A stretch of DNA of 64,000 nucleotides from Candidatus Phyllobacterium onerii (GTDB taxonomy: Bacteria > Pseudomonadota > Alphaproteobacteria > Rhizobiales > Rhizobiaceae): NCBI RefSeq assembly GCF_028331445.1, contig NZ_JAQMHX010000001.1:1054001-1118000 (forward strand), given 5' to 3'. Shown here one piece after another: positions 1,702 to 7,722 of this stretch. The notes beneath the pieces were generated by a model. The model was not told the origin of the DNA and did no database searches. It worked only from the letters and a program-made list of their open reading frames with translations. The position numbers and the translations under genes were made by a program. The number at the start of each line of letters is the position of its first letter. The first letter of the stretch is position 1.

Positions 1702-2385
1702 ATGGTGGCAGGGCCAATTTTGCAGCTGACAAATGTCGGCCGCCGTTATGATGAGATTGGCCGTGAGCTGGTCATTCTCAACGATGCCAGCTTTTCACTT
1801 GGCAAGGGTGAGATGGTGGCGCTTGTCGCGCCTTCCGGGGCCGGCAAGTCGACGTTGCTCCACACGGCTGGATTGCTGGAGCGGCCAGACAGCGGCGATG
1901 TCATTCTCGATGGCAGGTCCTGTGGTTCGCTTTCCGATGAAGAGCGCACGGCCATACGGCGAAACGACATAGGCTTTGTCTATCAGTTCCATCACCTTCT
2001 CCCGGAATTCACCGCATTGGAGAACGTTATGATGCCGCAACTAATTCGCGGCATGAAGCCAGCGGTGGCATCCGAGCGCGCGCAGCAGTTACTCGATTAC
2101 ATGAAGGTTGGTGCGCGTGCTTCGCACCGTCCCAGCGAACTCTCCGGCGGCGAGCAGCAGCGCGTGGCTATTGCCCGTGCTGTGGCGAACGCACCCTTGG
2201 TGCTCCTCGCTGACGAACCGACAGGCAATCTCGATCCCGTGACATCTTCCTATGTGTTCGAAGCACTTGAAGCACTTGTGAGGCAGTCGGGGCTGTCAGC
2301 CATGATCGCCACTCATAATTTTGAGCTGGCGCGCCGCATGGACAGGCGTGTGACGCTCAAGGATGGCAAAATCACCAACCTCTGA
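1702..2385 (+). CDS. lolD: Lipoprotein-releasing ABC transporter ATP-binding protein LolD
   Basis: ATPase that powers the LolC/E permease encoded immediately upstream. The 227 residues contain Walker A (APSGAGKST, residues 43-51), the signature [14 protein letters not shown], Walker B ([12 protein letters not shown]) and a switch His (ATHNFELA). The length and the EPTGNLD string match the LolD/MacB/FtsE group, and the neighbouring permease settles the identity. Only one base separates it from lolC. About 80 nt without a gene follow before a separate SOS-type promoter begins. Confidence 0.94.
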
Positions 2386-2454: not shown

Positions 2455-2486
2455 TTGACTTTGGAACAAAAAAGGAACAAAAGATA
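2455..2486 (+). promoter_or_regulatory. LexA-regulated (SOS) promoter with perfect GAAC-N7-GAAC box
   Basis: Two GAAC half-sites in direct repeat lie at 2464-2467 and 2475-2478 with exactly 7 nt between them. This is the alphaproteobacterial LexA operator (GTTC-N7-GTTC on the other strand). A TTGACT hexamer (2455-2460) lies just upstream and an A-rich -10-like stretch follows around 2479-2486, so the operator sits between the promoter elements. The first reading frame downstream is the micropeptide at 2518, and dnaE lies further on. The site is seen directly. Regulation by LexA is inferred from the known consensus. Confidence 0.75.
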
Positions 2487-2517
2487 GACATACAGACAAC
2501 GAAGAAGGGTTTTACCG

Positions 2518-2604
2518 ATGAGCGAACTTTTCCAGGATGTTATGTCATTCGTTACAGTCAGCCTGTTCATTGCGACGTTTGCAATGTGGGTGAGCGCAAT
2601 CTGA
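2518..2604 (+). CDS. SOS-box-controlled 28-residue single-pass membrane micropeptide (SidA-like)
   Basis: A short reading frame of 28 codons, starting MSELFQDVM and ending FAMWVSAI. It has a good ribosome site (AGAAGGG at 2503-2509, 8 nt before the ATG). After a short, mildly acidic amphipathic start, about 18 hydrophobic residues (from FVTVSLFIATFAM on) can form one membrane helix. A perfect LexA-type box lies 40 nt upstream. SidA of Caulobacter, an SOS-induced division inhibitor of about 29 residues in the inner membrane, has the same size, topology and control, so a similar role is inferred. I cannot confirm homology by sequence. It could instead be a leader peptide for dnaE. Confidence 0.6.
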   Translation: MSELFQDVMSFVTVSLFIATFAMWVSAI

Positions 2605-2764
2605 TAGATCAGGGATCGCTAAGATCGGAAATCCTGCGATCCCATTTCTGTCCACTGTTGAAGGAAGCGAAATCCCCAAATCAGGTGGACACTTCATCGC
2701 GCATGTCGGACTATACCGGCGCGGTGAATCAGTTTCTCCGTTCAGGTTTTCGGAGACAGAATAA

Positions 2765-5700
2765 TTGGCAGATGGACAGATCAACAGCAGTCTAGGGGTC
2801 GCGAGCAAACAGGCGCTGCGCTTCGTGCATCTTAGAGTCCATTCTGCGTATTCCTTACTTGAAGGTGCCCTGCAGGTCCCGAAAGTTATTGATCTTGCCG
2901 TTGCCAACAAAGCGCCGGCGATTGCGATAACCGACACTAACAATCTTTTTGGGGCGCTCGAATTTGCCCAGAAAGGATCGAAGGCAGGTCTGCAGCCCAT
3001 TATTGGCTGCCAGCTTGATGTTGCCTTTCATGACCAAGCGGAGGAAAGCCGCACCGCCAACAGGCGCGAAGCGCTGGGACTGGCGCCGCTCGTGCTCCTT
3101 GCTGCCACGGAGGCAGGTTATGCCAATCTCGTGCGCCTTGTCAGCCGCGCATACCTCGAAACGGCAGCGGGTGATCCGGTGCATATCACATCGGCATGGC
3201 TCAAAGGTCGTACGGACGGTATCATCGTTTTGTCTGGCGGTCCCGAAGGTCCCATCGCCAAATCGATCAAGGATGATCGGATTGATCGTGCACGGCAGCG
3301 GTTGAACTATTTGAAATCGATGTTCGGTGATCGGCTCTACGTCGAACTCCAGCGTCATCGCGGTTATGATCGCGCATTGGAGGCAGCGCAGGTTGAACTT
3401 GCGTACGAACTGGAACTGCCGCTCGTCGCGACGAACGACGTGTTTTTTTCAAAAAGTGCTGATTATGAAGCGCATGATGCACTTTTGGCGATTGCCTCCG
3501 GTTCGCTCCTGTCGATTGACGATCGCCGCAGGTTGACGCCGGACCACTACCTCAAGAGCGAAGATGAGATGGTGGAACTATTTACCGATCTGCCTGAGGC
3601 GGTTGAGAACACTGTCGAGATCGCAATGCGCTGTTCGTATTATCCCAAGAACCGTGCGCCAATTTTGCCGCGCTTTACGGGCGAGAGCGACGATCCGGAG
3701 GCGGCGTTGCGAGCCGAGGCCGATGAACTGGCGCGCCAGGCAAGGGAGGGCCTTGCGCAGCGCATCCAGACCTTGGGGCTAGCCGGAGGCCATACAGCCG
3801 AGCAATATTCGGAACGGCTGGAATACGAGATATCTATCATCACTCGGATGAAGTACCCGGGTTACTTTTTGATCGTTGCCGACTTCATCAAATGGGCCAA
3901 AGCTCATGATATCCCAGTCGGCCCCGGACGTGGATCAGGTGCGGGTTCGCTCGTCGCCTATGCGCTCACGATCACCGACGTTGACCCGCTCCGGTTCTCG
4001 CTGCTGTTCGAACGCTTTCTTAATCCGGACCGCGTCTCGATGCCCGACTTTGATATCGACTTCTGCCAAGAGCGGCGCGATGAGGTTATTCGTTATGTTC
4101 AGGGTAAATATGGCCGTGATCAGGTAGCTCAAATCATAACCTTCGGTACGCTCCAGGCTCGCGCCGTATTGCGCGATGTGGGCCGCGTTCTGGAAATGCC
4201 CTACGGCCAGGTTGATCGTCTGACCAAGATGGTGCCGGCCAATCCCGCCAATCCAGTGACCTTATCGAAGGCGATCGAAGACGAACCGCGACTGCGCGAG
4301 GAGCGTGACAAGGAGCCTGTCGTCGAGCGCTTGCTCGACATATCCTTGAAGCTGGAGGGGCTTTACCGCCACGCGTCGACTCACGCGGCGGGTATCGTGA
4401 TCGGGGATCGGCCTTTGTCGGAACTTGTGCCGATGTATCGCGATCCACGTTCGGATATGCCGGTTACGCAGTTCAACATGAAAATGGTTGAAGAGGCTGG
4501 GCTGGTCAAATTCGATTTTCTTGGTCTGAAAACGCTGACAGTTCTGCAGACAGCCGTCAATCTCCTCAAGCGGCGCAGCATCGCAGTAGATCTTTCGAAT
4601 CTGCCCTTCGACGACAAGCTCACCTACGAGATGCTATCGCGCGGCGAGACAGTCGGCGTGTTTCAGGTGGAAAGCACCGGCATGCGCAAGGCGCTGATCG
4701 GCATGCGGCCCGACCGGATTGAAGATATCATCGCGCTCGTCGCGCTCTATCGGCCGGGTCCGATGGAGAACATCCCGACCTACAATGCCCGTAAGAACGG
4801 CGATGAGGAGATGGCGTCGATTCATCCGAAAATCGATCATCTCGTCAAGGAAACCCAAGGCGTCATCATCTATCAGGAACAGGTGATGCAGATCGCGCAG
4901 GAAATGTCGGGCTATACGCTCGGCGAAGCCGATCTTCTTCGGCGTGCCATGGGCAAGAAGATCCGCGCCGAAATGGACATGCAGCGGGTCCGGTTTGTCG
5001 ACGGTGCCGTCGAGCGTGGTGTGACCAAGCCGCAAGCCAATTTCATCTTCGACCTGCTCGCGAAGTTCGCCGATTACGGATTCAACAAGTCCCATGCCGC
5101 GGCCTATGCGATCGTGTCGTTCCAAACGGCCTATATGAAGGCCCACTATCCAGTGGAATTCCTTGCCGCATCAATGACATACGACATGTCTAACACGGAT
5201 AAGCTCAACGATTTCCGCCGGGAGGCGGTGCGGCTTGGCATCGAAGTCGTCACGCCATCAGTCAATACGTCTTACCGTTTGTTCGAGGTTGGCGAGAACC
5301 GCATCTTCTATTCGCTCGCGGCCATCAAGGGCGTTGGCGAAGCGGCTGTCGATCATATTGTCGAGAAGCGCGGTGCGACGCCCTACGGCAGCCTCGAGGA
5401 TTTCTGCGAGCGGATCGATCCGCGTGTCGTCAACCGCCGCGTCTTCGAAAGCCTTATAAATGCTGGGGCTTTCGACTGTTTCGGGCGTGAACGGCCTGCG
5501 CTGATTGCCGGGCTCGACCGGATTATCGGTCATGCACAACGCACGCAGGAAGACAGCGTTAGCGGTCAGGCCGATATATTCGGGGGAATGGCCGCAAGCG
5601 CCCAAACCATTCAGCTCCCTGCAGCTGCACCTTGGCTTTCGGCGGAGAAGTTGCGACGGGAATTCGAGGCGGCGGGTTTTTATCTCTCGGCGCATCCACT

Positions 5701-6262
5701 CGACGAGTACCGTGCAGTGCTTGAAAAGATGCGCGTCCAGACCTGGTCGGAGTTTTCGGCGGCGGTCAAACGCGGCGCCAACGCGGGGCGTCTTGCCGGG
5801 ACAATTACGGCCAAGCAAGAGCGCAAGACCAAAACCGGTAACAAGATGGGAATCATCCAATTCTCTGATTCTTCAGGACAATTCGAGGCAGTACTCTTTT
5901 CTGAAGCCCTCTCTCAGTACCGTGATCTGCTTGAACCCGGTCGCTCCGTGGTGGTCACTGTTGGCGCCGAGGACCGGCCTGAAGGCATCAGCCTGCGCAT
6001 CCAGACAGCGCAATCACTCGAAGATGAGGCAACCCGCATGCAGAAGGCATTGCGCCTCTATATGCGTTCCAGCGAACCGCTAAGTGCCATTACACCCTAT
6101 CTGGCGCCGCAGAACGATGGCCAGGTAGTGAGCCTGATCCTGATCAAGGAAAATGGCGCAACCGAAGTGGAGATCGAACTGCCGAACCGCTATCGTGTCG
6201 GTCCGCAGGTCGCCAGTGCGATGAAAGCCATACCGGGAATTGTGGAAGTCGAGATGGCCTGA
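2765..6262 (+). CDS. dnaE: DNA polymerase III subunit alpha
   Basis: Catalytic subunit of the replicative polymerase. The N-terminal PHP domain shows HLRVHSAYSLLEGA (His22 and His26). The palm carries the aspartate motif PDFDIDF (Asp430 and Asp432). Other family stretches are GPGRGSGAGSLVAY, YRPGPMENIPTY and NKSHAAAYA. Near the C-terminus lie the helix-hairpin-helix region and an OB fold (about residues 1000-1080). The length of 1165 residues is normal for DnaE1. I chose the TTG at 2765 because CGGAGA ends 8 nt before it and no ATG fits. An SOS-type promoter and a micropeptide gene precede it, so part of its transcription may be damage-inducible. Confidence 0.96.
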   Translation: MADGQINSSLGVASKQALRFVHLRVHSAYSLLEGALQVPKVIDLAVANKAPAIAITDTNNLFGALEFAQKGSKAGLQPIIGCQLDVAFHDQAEESRTANRREALGLAPLVLLAATEAGYANLVRLVSRAYLETAAGDPVHITSAWLKGRTDGIIVLSGGPEGPIAKSIKDDRIDRARQRLNYLKSMFGDRLYVELQRHRGYDRALEAAQVELAYELELPLVATNDVFFSKSADYEAHDALLAIASGSLLSIDDRRRLTPDHYLKSEDEMVELFTDLPEAVENTVEIAMRCSYYPKNRAPILPRFTGESDDPEAALRAEADELARQAREGLAQRIQTLGLAGGHTAEQYSERLEYEISIITRMKYPGYFLIVADFIKWAKAHDIPVGPGRGSGAGSLVAYALTITDVDPLRFSLLFERFLNPDRVSMPDFDIDFCQERRDEVIRYVQGKYGRDQVAQIITFGTLQARAVLRDVGRVLEMPYGQVDRLTKMVPANPANPVTLSKAIEDEPRLREERDKEPVVERLLDISLKLEGLYRHASTHAAGIVIGDRPLSELVPMYRDPRSDMPVTQFNMKMVEEAGLVKFDFLGLKTLTVLQTAVNLLKRRSIAVDLSNLPFDDKLTYEMLSRGETVGVFQVESTGMRKALIGMRPDRIEDIIALVALYRPGPMENIPTYNARKNGDEEMASIHPKIDHLVKETQGVIIYQEQVMQIAQEMSGYTLGEADLLRRAMGKKIRAEMDMQRVRFVDGAVERGVTKPQANFIFDLLAKFADYGFNKSHAAAYAIVSFQTAYMKAHYPVEFLAASMTYDMSNTDKLNDFRREAVRLGIEVVTPSVNTSYRLFEVGENRIFYSLAAIKGVGEAAVDHIVEKRGATPYGSLEDFCERIDPRVVNRRVFESLINAGAFDCFGRERPALIAGLDRIIGHAQRTQEDSVSGQADIFGGMAASAQTIQLPAAAPWLSAEKLRREFEAAGFYLSAHPLDEYRAVLEKMRVQTWSEFSAAVKRGANAGRLAGTITAKQERKTKTGNKMGIIQFSDSSGQFEAVLFSEALSQYRDLLEPGRSVVVTVGAEDRPEGISLRIQTAQSLEDEATRMQKALRLYMRSSEPLSAITPYLAPQNDGQVVSLILIKENGATEVEIELPNRYRVGPQVASAMKAIPGIVEVEMA

Positions 6263-6309: not shown

Positions 6310-6372
6310 ATTCTTGTTCCCGATTTGACTATTCTTGTTCCAGATTCGGAGAGTCTTGTCCGATATTCACCG
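6310..6372. repeat. Three degenerate tandem copies of a 21-nt unit between dnaE and dinB ends
   Basis: ATTCTTGTTCC begins at 6310 and again at 6331, each followed by a GATT-like stretch. A weaker third copy (AGTCTTGTCC) begins at 6352. The period is 21 nt, or two helical turns. The copies fill the gap between the converging 3' ends of dnaE and dinB, and the last copy reaches the dinB stop codon. There is no strong hairpin, so this is not an ordinary terminator. The GTTC words are not spaced as an SOS box. Confidence 0.5.
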
Positions 6373-7698
6373 GTTTTCGTTTGAATCCGTATCATCGGGC
6401 AGAGCTTCGACTCGAGATTTGACCCTGCCGAACGTGTATCCGGTCTCGACAGCATTGCTGCCGAATTTCCCGCGGAGCTTGTCTATTGCCGTTTCGGCAA
6501 CCGCACGTTTAGTCGCTTGAATATCGACCAGGTCGAGCGGGTCAGCGCGATCATCGTTGCCAAGGTCGCTGACGCCGATCCCGAGCAGACGAAATCGCGT
6601 GCCGTCGATTTCTTTTTCAAGCAGCGAAAAGCCGGTACGGAAAATCCGGTCGGCCAGTTGTGTCGGATCGGCCAACTGGCGGTTTCGGGTTCTGAGTTTG
6701 AAATCCCGAGTCTTCAATTTAAGGACGACAGTCCTTCCAGCGATGTCCGCCGCTTTGAGGCGCCTCGACACTTTTTCCGATAAAGACCGCAATATTGGCG
6801 TGAGCTCTTCGAGCGATGCGATGTCTTCATTGAAGGTCGTTTCAGCGGATACACTTTTGCTCTCGCTGTCAGGTTCAACGCGGCGCGTATCAAGTCCCCG
6901 CGATAGATGGTAAAGGCGCTGCCCCATAGTACCATAGGCAGCCATCAAGGGGCCAAGTTCCATCGTCTGAAGTTGGCCTATGGTGCGAATGCCATCGCGC
7001 TCCAGCGTTGCATTGAACGCCTTGCCGACGCCCCATATCATCGTAACAGGTTTGTCGGCCAGGAACGCGGGTGCCTCTTGTTCTCCGATGATAGAAAAGC
7101 CGCGTGGCTTCTCGAAGTCCGAGGCGATCTTCGCCAGGAACTTGCAGTAGGAAATACCGACAGAAACGGAAAGCCCCATGTCTCGTTCTACTCGATTTGA
7201 AAAATGCGCCATCACACGGGAAGGTGGATCGTGATGCAGGCGCTCGGTCCCCGACAGATCCAAAAAGGCTTCATCGATCGACAACGGCTCGACCAGAGGA
7301 GTCAAATCGCGCATCATTTGCCGAATCTCGCGACCGACCCGGGCATATTTTTCCATGTTGGGACTGATAACGACAGCGTGCGGACAAGCCTCCAGAGCCT
7401 TGAACATCGGCATCGCCGACTTCACACCATGGATGCGGGCGACGTAGCAAGCTGTTGAAACGACGCCGCGTTTTCCGCCCCCAATAATGACGGGCTTGTT
7501 TCGCAATTCCGAATTGTCGCGCTTTTCCACCGAAGCGTAGAACGCATCGCAGTCCACATGCGCGATGCTGAGGCGATAAAGCTCCGGATGGCGCACGAGA
7601 CGTGGGCTCCCGCAGAGATGACAGCGGCGTCCTTCCGACTTCTGGGCGGCCAGACAGTCACGGCAAAAACCAAATCTCGGATCGTTGAGGGTTGCCAT
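6367..7698 (-). CDS. dinB: DNA polymerase IV (Y family) with N-terminal zinc-finger-like extension
   Basis: Error-prone translesion polymerase. From the start [11 protein letters not shown] there is a Cys4-like extension (CRDC then CHLC, about residues 11-30). The Y-family catalytic core follows: [15 protein letters not shown], the [13 protein letters not shown] stretch, and [10 protein letters not shown] with the catalytic Asp and Glu. The little-finger domain closes the protein. A start 15 nt further upstream (7713) is open, but that ATG lies inside the LexA box, so 7698 is preferred. The cysteine extension is common in rhizobial Pol IV proteins and may bind zinc. The gene converges on dnaE. 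Confidence 0.93.
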
Positions 7699-7707
7699 CG
7701 GGGTCCG

Positions 7708-7722
7708 GAACATAAAAGGAAC
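7708..7722 (-). promoter_or_regulatory. LexA (SOS) box in front of dinB
   Basis: On the minus strand GTTC at 7722-7719 and GTTC at 7711-7708 form a direct repeat with a 7-nt spacer (CTTTTAT). This is the alphaproteobacterial LexA operator. It ends 10 nt before the preferred dinB start, so LexA binding would cover the promoter or transcription start and the mRNA leader would be very short. SOS control of dinB is established in many bacteria and is inferred here. Confidence 0.75.

Follow-up and report, generated by a model that had tools for sequence, protein, structure and literature searches.

A predicted SidA-like membrane micropeptide gene under probable SOS control between lolD and dnaE in Candidatus Phyllobacterium onerii

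The window analysed here is a stretch of 64,000 nucleotides from the 6.0-Mb genome of Candidatus Phyllobacterium onerii, whose DnaE is 97% identical over its first 500 residues to that of Phyllobacterium sp. KW56. The genes lolD and dnaE are separated by a gap (2386–2764) that holds a TTGACT hexamer, a LexA-type box, a Shine-Dalgarno-like motif and a frame of 28 codons (Table 1). The original prediction had described a perfect GAAC-N7-GAAC box lying between the -35 and -10 elements of a promoter and followed, about 40 nt further on, by a 28-codon frame with a good ribosome site. The box is indeed perfect, and the ATG lies 39 nt after its end, or 54 nt from its start, and is preceded by the motif AGAAGGG; the frame closes with a TGA stop (2602–2604), 160 nt before the start of dnaE. 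The promoter is half confirmed, because the -35-like hexamer is present but no canonical -10 was found, with 0 promoter-like sites in 2300–2900. A terminator search found none after the frame, where an uncertain hairpin may form. The micropeptide gene is missed by standard annotation. Further along the window, a second perfect box overlaps the first ATG of the dinB frame, the real start of which is probably a few codons downstream.

Table 1. Features of the lolD-dnaE-dinB region, in window coordinates
Feature	Position	Strand	Basis
lolD, upstream neighbour	1702..2385	+	best NCBIfam match TIGR02211 (LolD), E 1.5e-77, 260.1 bits, below the model cut-off of 307.75
TTGACT, probable -35 element	2455..2460	+	sequence; TTGAC(T/A) directly 5' of the box kept in close relatives
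LexA box GAAC-N7-GAAC, perfect, GAACAAAAAAGGAAC	2464..2478	+	pattern match; ortholog loci; recA/lexA boxes
Shine-Dalgarno-like AGAAGGG, 8 nt 5' of the ATG	2503..2509	+	purine-rich SD, same place in relatives
SidA-like membrane micropeptide gene (predicted), 28 codons, MSELFQDVMSFVTVSLFIATFAMWVSAI	2518..2604	+	conservation, dN/dS
Possible RNA hairpin 3' of the stop codon, 8-bp stem, uncertain	2612..2643	+	z -1.81; 9/200 shuffles fold equally well
dnaE (DNA polymerase III alpha), downstream neighbour	2765..6262	+	NCBIfam NF004226, 1500.9 bits, above cut-off
dinB	6367..7713	minus	NCBIfam NF002751, 708.3 bits, above cut-off
Second perfect LexA box, at dinB start	7708..7722	+	pattern match; internal reference for box type

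Perfect boxes are enriched in the window (7 found, 2.46 expected, and 7 reached in 0 of 100 shuffles). In the genome as a whole they number 209, fewer than the 259 occurrences of a reversed control pattern, and the box alone was for this reason rejected as evidence. A role for the box is supported, at the level of sequence, by perfect boxes of the same type upstream of recA and lexA in the host genome, by the box at dinB, and by the fact that box and peptide travel together. Among 15 host regions picked mostly for A-rich boxes, no SOS gene besides dinB was named. One host region (L203, G000:C2:451413-453013) carries a LexA-type box 93 nt before a frame starting MCNLYNATTTHEAMRQ, a frame that we take to resemble a YedK/SRAP-domain protein.

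Conservation of the box and the frame had been named beforehand as a check. A search with the single peptide against 121 genomes of the family gave matches in 72 at E<=1, and the top locus in each of the 30 best-matching genomes, chosen by peptide similarity alone, was retained as an ortholog locus. The frame has exactly 28 codons in all 30, and a perfect box starts 32–68 nt before the ATG in 29, the exception (L008) having a box with one mismatch. A profile built from the 30 members matched 180 of 247 family genomes and 85 of 109 genera at E<=0.01, a count that overlaps the source genomes of the profile, includes weak partial matches and box-less copies, and comes from matches whose boxes were not checked one by one. 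Some genomes hold box-less second copies, two of which outscore some of the 30 loci. Synonymous bias among relatives, which had also been anticipated, is borne out: dN/dS, pooled over pairs that are not independent, is 0.07 for 3 sequences of the host's own genus, 0.10 for 6 and 0.16 for 13, so that synonymous changes dominate, and 0.22 for 4 sequences of the Rhizobium type; Caulobacter sidA, the positive control, gives 0.26 (9 sequences). M1, D7 and F17 are invariant across 14 Rhizobiaceae-type sequences and W24 across the 30 ortholog peptides, while lysine and arginine are absent from 29 of 30 family peptides and the net charge is -2 in nearly all. A single hydrophobic helix is predicted, the best 19-residue hydropathy being 1.92 for the window peptide and 2.06 for SidA. 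To judge by these comparisons, the frame is a real gene whose amino-acid sequence is under selection. That it is a chance frame following a chance box has the abundance of perfect boxes in the genome in its favour; the conservation, the dN/dS values and the co-occurrence of the box reduce its probability almost to nothing.

Database searches with the family were mostly silent. The window peptide has no match in Pfam and, at E<=1, none in NCBIfam, and five further Rhizobiales-type peptides returned nothing from NCBIfam or Pfam at E<=10; tblastn gave no match to the window peptide in a plasmid collection or to two related peptides in a phage collection. A class-wide HMM search with the A1 profile matched 23 of 385 genomes at E<=0.1, and these were not counted as homologs; the window's own gene aside, they are short stretches, several of them in long frames, or are broken by stops. 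A second match in the host itself (G000:C19, E 0.0095, within a 142-codon open frame) was attributed to chance. Because the A1 profile had no convincing match outside the family in the 385 genomes, the DNA upstream of dnaE was read in other orders, and there synteny and the box revealed counterparts that this profile had missed.

The original prediction had compared the peptide to SidA, a 29-residue inner-membrane peptide of Caulobacter reported to block division through FtsW (PMC4211646), and had proposed a comparison with the sidA locus. In Caulobacter genomes, located with a CtrA probe, a box GAACATCTTGTGAAC and a 29-codon frame stand upstream of dnaE in 9 of 11 cases, and no box is found there in the other two (L078, L083). 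The frame of L072 matches the NCBIfam model 'cell division inhibitor SidA' over all 29 positions (E 2.2e-20), and all four Caulobacter frames tested, this one included, score 71.3–73.4 bits against a cut-off of 35. It follows that sidA, given as locus CCNA_02004 (PMC10769358), is the gene in that slot, and hence that the Phyllobacterium peptide sits where sidA does.

With the DnaE of the window as query, this reading was extended to 80 named loci, the best 80 of at least 592; two with less than 300 nt upstream were left out and 78 counted. Upstream of dnaE, a box is present in 36 of them and, with thresholds set after a first look at the data, a box combined with a hydrophobic ATG frame of 24–40 codons in 31, the combination occurring 0 times in 40 dinucleotide-shuffle sets and in 0 of 78 loci on the opposite strand. 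Positives include Rhizobium, Sinorhizobium, Ahrensia, Stappia, Ancylobacter, Devosia, Bradyrhizobium, Tardiphaga, Methylobacterium, Sneathiella, Maricaulis, Hellea and Phenylobacterium, many of which (e.g., Methylobacterium, Sneathiella, Maricaulis, Hellea and Stappia) are assigned by position, box and hydrophobicity. In Rhodobacteraceae, assigned by title, no box lies within 1 kb upstream of dnaE in any of 17 loci. Of 30 genomes picked by hand, among them 17 of the Caulobacter family, 25 have a box and 21 the combination (shuffles 0, opposite strand 1). Six misses were re-examined: the frame is absent from three (L084, L085, L088) and present in three, either behind one-mismatch boxes (L094, L099) or behind a perfect box at closer spacing (L096), so some misses are detection failures. 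In two other loci (L113, L148), too, a short hydrophobic frame follows a box more closely than the threshold allows. In L085, L086 and L087 (Mesorhizobium) and L088 (Bartonella), there is neither a box upstream of dnaE nor lolD in the locus; lineages of this type may have kept the box-peptide unit beside lolD, or the unit may have moved to another place, as in the family loci L009–L030.

Direct comparison with SidA gives a graded picture. The window peptide does not match the SidA equivalog NF033228, whose curated cut-off of 35 bits is passed, for scale, by 7 of 8 frames from Caulobacter-family and Phenylobacterium loci (44.3–73.4 bits; the remaining one scores 23.5). An Ancylobacter peptide of the Bradyrhizobium type reaches a sub-threshold 13.2 bits (E 0.067) on the SidA model, and the one Rhizobium-type peptide tested against it had no match. 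The signal is weak for the window peptide alone against a SidA profile (p 0.05 at register 0, 0.20 over nine offsets), for Caulobacter SidA against the 30-member profile (0.03 and 0.10) and for the 30-member group against SidA by column permutation (0.008, and 0.06 over registers). An hhalign comparison of 14 Rhizobiaceae-type with 7 SidA-type sequences gave a probability of 83% and a pairwise E of 8.6e-6 over columns 1–18. Among hand-chosen groups, with the Bradyrhizobium type shifted by one residue, column permutation gave p 0.004 at register 0 (0.033 as the best of 7 registers) for Rhizobiaceae against SidA, p 5e-5 (2e-4) for Rhizobiaceae against the Bradyrhizobium type and p 1e-4 (4e-4) for the Bradyrhizobium type against SidA. 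The Devosia-type group comprised 6 peptides in single-sequence tests and 4 in column permutation, L101 and L108 being left out; L108 resembles neither profile (best-offset p 0.23 and 0.04). The profile tests thus appear to link the window peptide family to SidA, mainly through intermediates.

Several traits are shared beyond the slot upstream of dnaE. Window peptide and SidA have 28 and 29 codons, respectively, and one hydrophobic stretch each; the LexA box starts 54 nt before the ATG in the window and 64 nt before it in Caulobacter L072; and both peptides have an acidic residue at position 7, S/T at 13 and F17, which in the Rhizobiaceae type and SidA taken as groups correspond to an acidic residue at 7, mostly S/T/C at 13 and F17. 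The wider features of a SidA-like family are found as well, namely the slot, a LexA-type box directly upstream and some 28–35 residues with one predicted hydrophobic helix. The two differ in that the window peptide has no basic residue and a net charge of -2, whereas five Caulobacterales sequences range from 0 to +1, so that topology and partner contacts could differ. SidA has W19 where the 30 orthologs have W24, which is absent from the Rhizobium type, and division arrest is shown for Caulobacter only. The likeness to SidA that had been proposed is supported by the same slot, the same kind of box and a profile link that improves via intermediates, and the micropeptide is most probably a divergent Rhizobiales branch of SidA, outside the NCBIfam SidA equivalog.

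The position of the frame raises the question of its relation to dnaE, since the original prediction had it tie DNA damage to dnaE expression. That link has a basis in the window, where dnaE follows, but it is not general: of the 30 ortholog loci, 10 have dnaE within 1.5 kb, 21 have lolD and 7 have neither. Only eight downstream neighbours confirmed with Pfam were used, because the longest-frame listing can pick antisense frames (as in L025). Seven are convergent, encoding a gamma-glutamyltranspeptidase (L009, L010, L011, L024, L029), a lipoyl ligase A/B-domain protein (L013) and an RNB/S1 RNase (L027), and one, the large chain of carbamoyl-phosphate synthase (L020), is on the same strand. Box and peptide are kept in all eight, seven of them beside convergent genes, and the unit is therefore self-sufficient. 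These data weigh on the proposal that the frame is a uORF or leader peptide setting dnaE expression and the LexA box dnaE's own operator. Such a role would fit the 160 nt that separate frame and dnaE in the window, the citation of Caulobacter dnaE as SOS-regulated in a comparative study (PMC3323433), and sORF25 of Sinorhizobium meliloti, a short translated frame in the dnaE1 5'-UTR for which a Ribo-seq study suggested a possible uORF function (PMC10117765). Across the family, however, dnaE is not regularly the next gene on the same transcript, as the 10 of 30 loci and the retention of box and peptide beside convergent neighbours make plain; the amino-acid sequence is under selection, and the peptide in the same Caulobacter slot is SidA. 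We therefore consider a leader function very unlikely. Where dnaE follows, its co-induction is possible, and we infer that the SOS regulation reported for Caulobacter dnaE reflects the box of sidA.

The case of sORF25 can be read in the same terms. The Sinorhizobium locus L093 has, in the same place, a perfect box and a 28-codon SidA-like frame, MTDFVRDLAAFASMSLFIASISVIALGL; like this frame, sORF25 is a short frame upstream of dnaE1, and its position suggests that it is probably the same gene. It differs in having been reported as a possible uORF, and the main text of that report mentions neither LexA nor SOS nor SidA (PMC10117765).

Altogether, these findings make it likely that the gene is a divergent Phyllobacterium ortholog of Caulobacter sidA, SOS-controlled and arresting division via FtsW, with SOS control being probable from the sequence of the box. 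In undamaged cells, LexA bound at 2464–2478 would block the promoter, as suggested by the box itself and its likeness to those of recA, lexA and dinB. DNA damage would lead to LexA cleavage and synthesis of the 28-residue peptide, which, from its hydropathy, is predicted to insert as a single membrane helix. By extension from published work on SidA, the peptide would then hold the FtsW/FtsI/FtsN septal complex inactive until repair is done, its gene acting as a free-standing unit and not as a leader of dnaE. In Caulobacter, FtsW(A31K) is reported to suppress SidA but not DidA, while FtsW(F145L) and FtsW(A246T) suppress both (PMC4211646). At each of these three suppressor sites (A31, F145 and A246), the host FtsW carries the same residue as its Caulobacter counterpart; the second SEDS protein of Caulobacter likewise has A246, whose conservation therefore says little.

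A LexA-controlled membrane peptide need not act on septation, and the gene might instead encode a membrane-active toxin of the DinQ or TisB kind. Small size, hydrophobicity and SOS control also suit that class, and the family is devoid of the basic N-terminus of SidA. This alternative is nonetheless unlikely, given that slot and register are those of SidA and that the acidic residue at 7, F17 and mostly S/T/C at 13 are held in common. Other damage-induced division inhibitors invite comparison. DidA of Caulobacter is described as a small damage-induced division inhibitor with a single helix that acts on the FtsW/I/N complex, but it has 71 residues, is SOS-independent and binds FtsN. YneA of Bacillus and SosA of Staphylococcus are described as SOS-induced division inhibitors, with YneA interacting with FtsW; both are larger, have extracellular domains and are unrelated in sequence. 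To our knowledge, few species outside the gammaproteobacteria have had SOS-dependent division inhibitors described. In the open-licence literature, SidA was found reported from Caulobacter only; the original paper (Modell et al. 2011) lies outside that scope and may discuss homologs.

Copies of the peptide are also found in phage-like surroundings. Twenty regions examined gave 8 peptides with a box, 8 without, 3 with no frame by the filter used (L168, L170, L172) and 1 cut at a contig edge (L176). The eight box-less Rhizobiaceae peptides (L164, L165, L166, L167, L169, L171, L174, L177) have no perfect box within 130 nt, and seven of them begin MRD. Tests of neighbours in three of these loci identified exonuclease VIII in L165 (E 2.8e-16), an exonuclease in L167 (7.6e-57) and phage repressors in L169 (E 2.4e-8); two frames near the box-bearing L013 gave weak matches to phage regulators. 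A search for the FIATFAxW DNA pattern matched 17 viral contigs, with a SidA-like peptide in 7 (L184, L186, L187, L188, L191, L195, L196) and unrelated frames in 10. No box lies within 120 nt in the 5 of these with an ATG start, while in L195 and L196 the start is ambiguous. The prophage and viral SidA-like peptides have 28–33 residues and mostly start MRD. In L186, an exonuclease frame begins about 0.75 kb after the start of the peptide, and next comes a frame that is RecT-like by inspection. The contig of L186 has the same length as G016:C27, so that L186 and L165 are probably one case. This arrangement recalls lambda Kil, a small division blocker encoded beside phage recombination genes; the likeness concerns the prophage copies only and lies in their arrangement near recombination genes, while Kil differs in being longer and in targeting FtsZ. 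By analogy, the prophage and viral peptides are possible phage-borne division blockers.

A broader reading joins these observations, and we put it forward tentatively, as one that may well prove wrong. The sidA locus would be a DNA-damage checkpoint of ancestral origin in the Alphaproteobacteria, overlooked in annotation on account of a product that is too short and too divergent, and Rhizobiaceae temperate phages would have captured the gene without its box as a lambda-Kil-like blocker of host division near their recombination genes. On the same tentative footing, the checkpoint would be present in Rhizobiales, Caulobacterales, Maricaulis/Hellea and Sneathiella; at this locus it is not found in Rhodobacteraceae. 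If true, a single micropeptide family would serve as SOS division inhibitor across much of Alphaproteobacteria, nitrogen-fixing symbionts included, the LexA box upstream of dnaE would be reassigned from dnaE to the peptide, and S. meliloti sORF25 would gain an immediate hypothesis. The many natural variants of the family could serve to map the way in which a helix of 28 residues would stop FtsW, and the copies in phages suggest that this handle on division is one that phages use as well.

The box itself also varies within the family. In eight loci (L011, L012, L013, L014, L017, L022, L025, L026), the peptide is preceded by overlapping double boxes, GAAC-N7-GAAC-N7-GAAC, with an 11-nt period, which could form two overlapping LexA sites.
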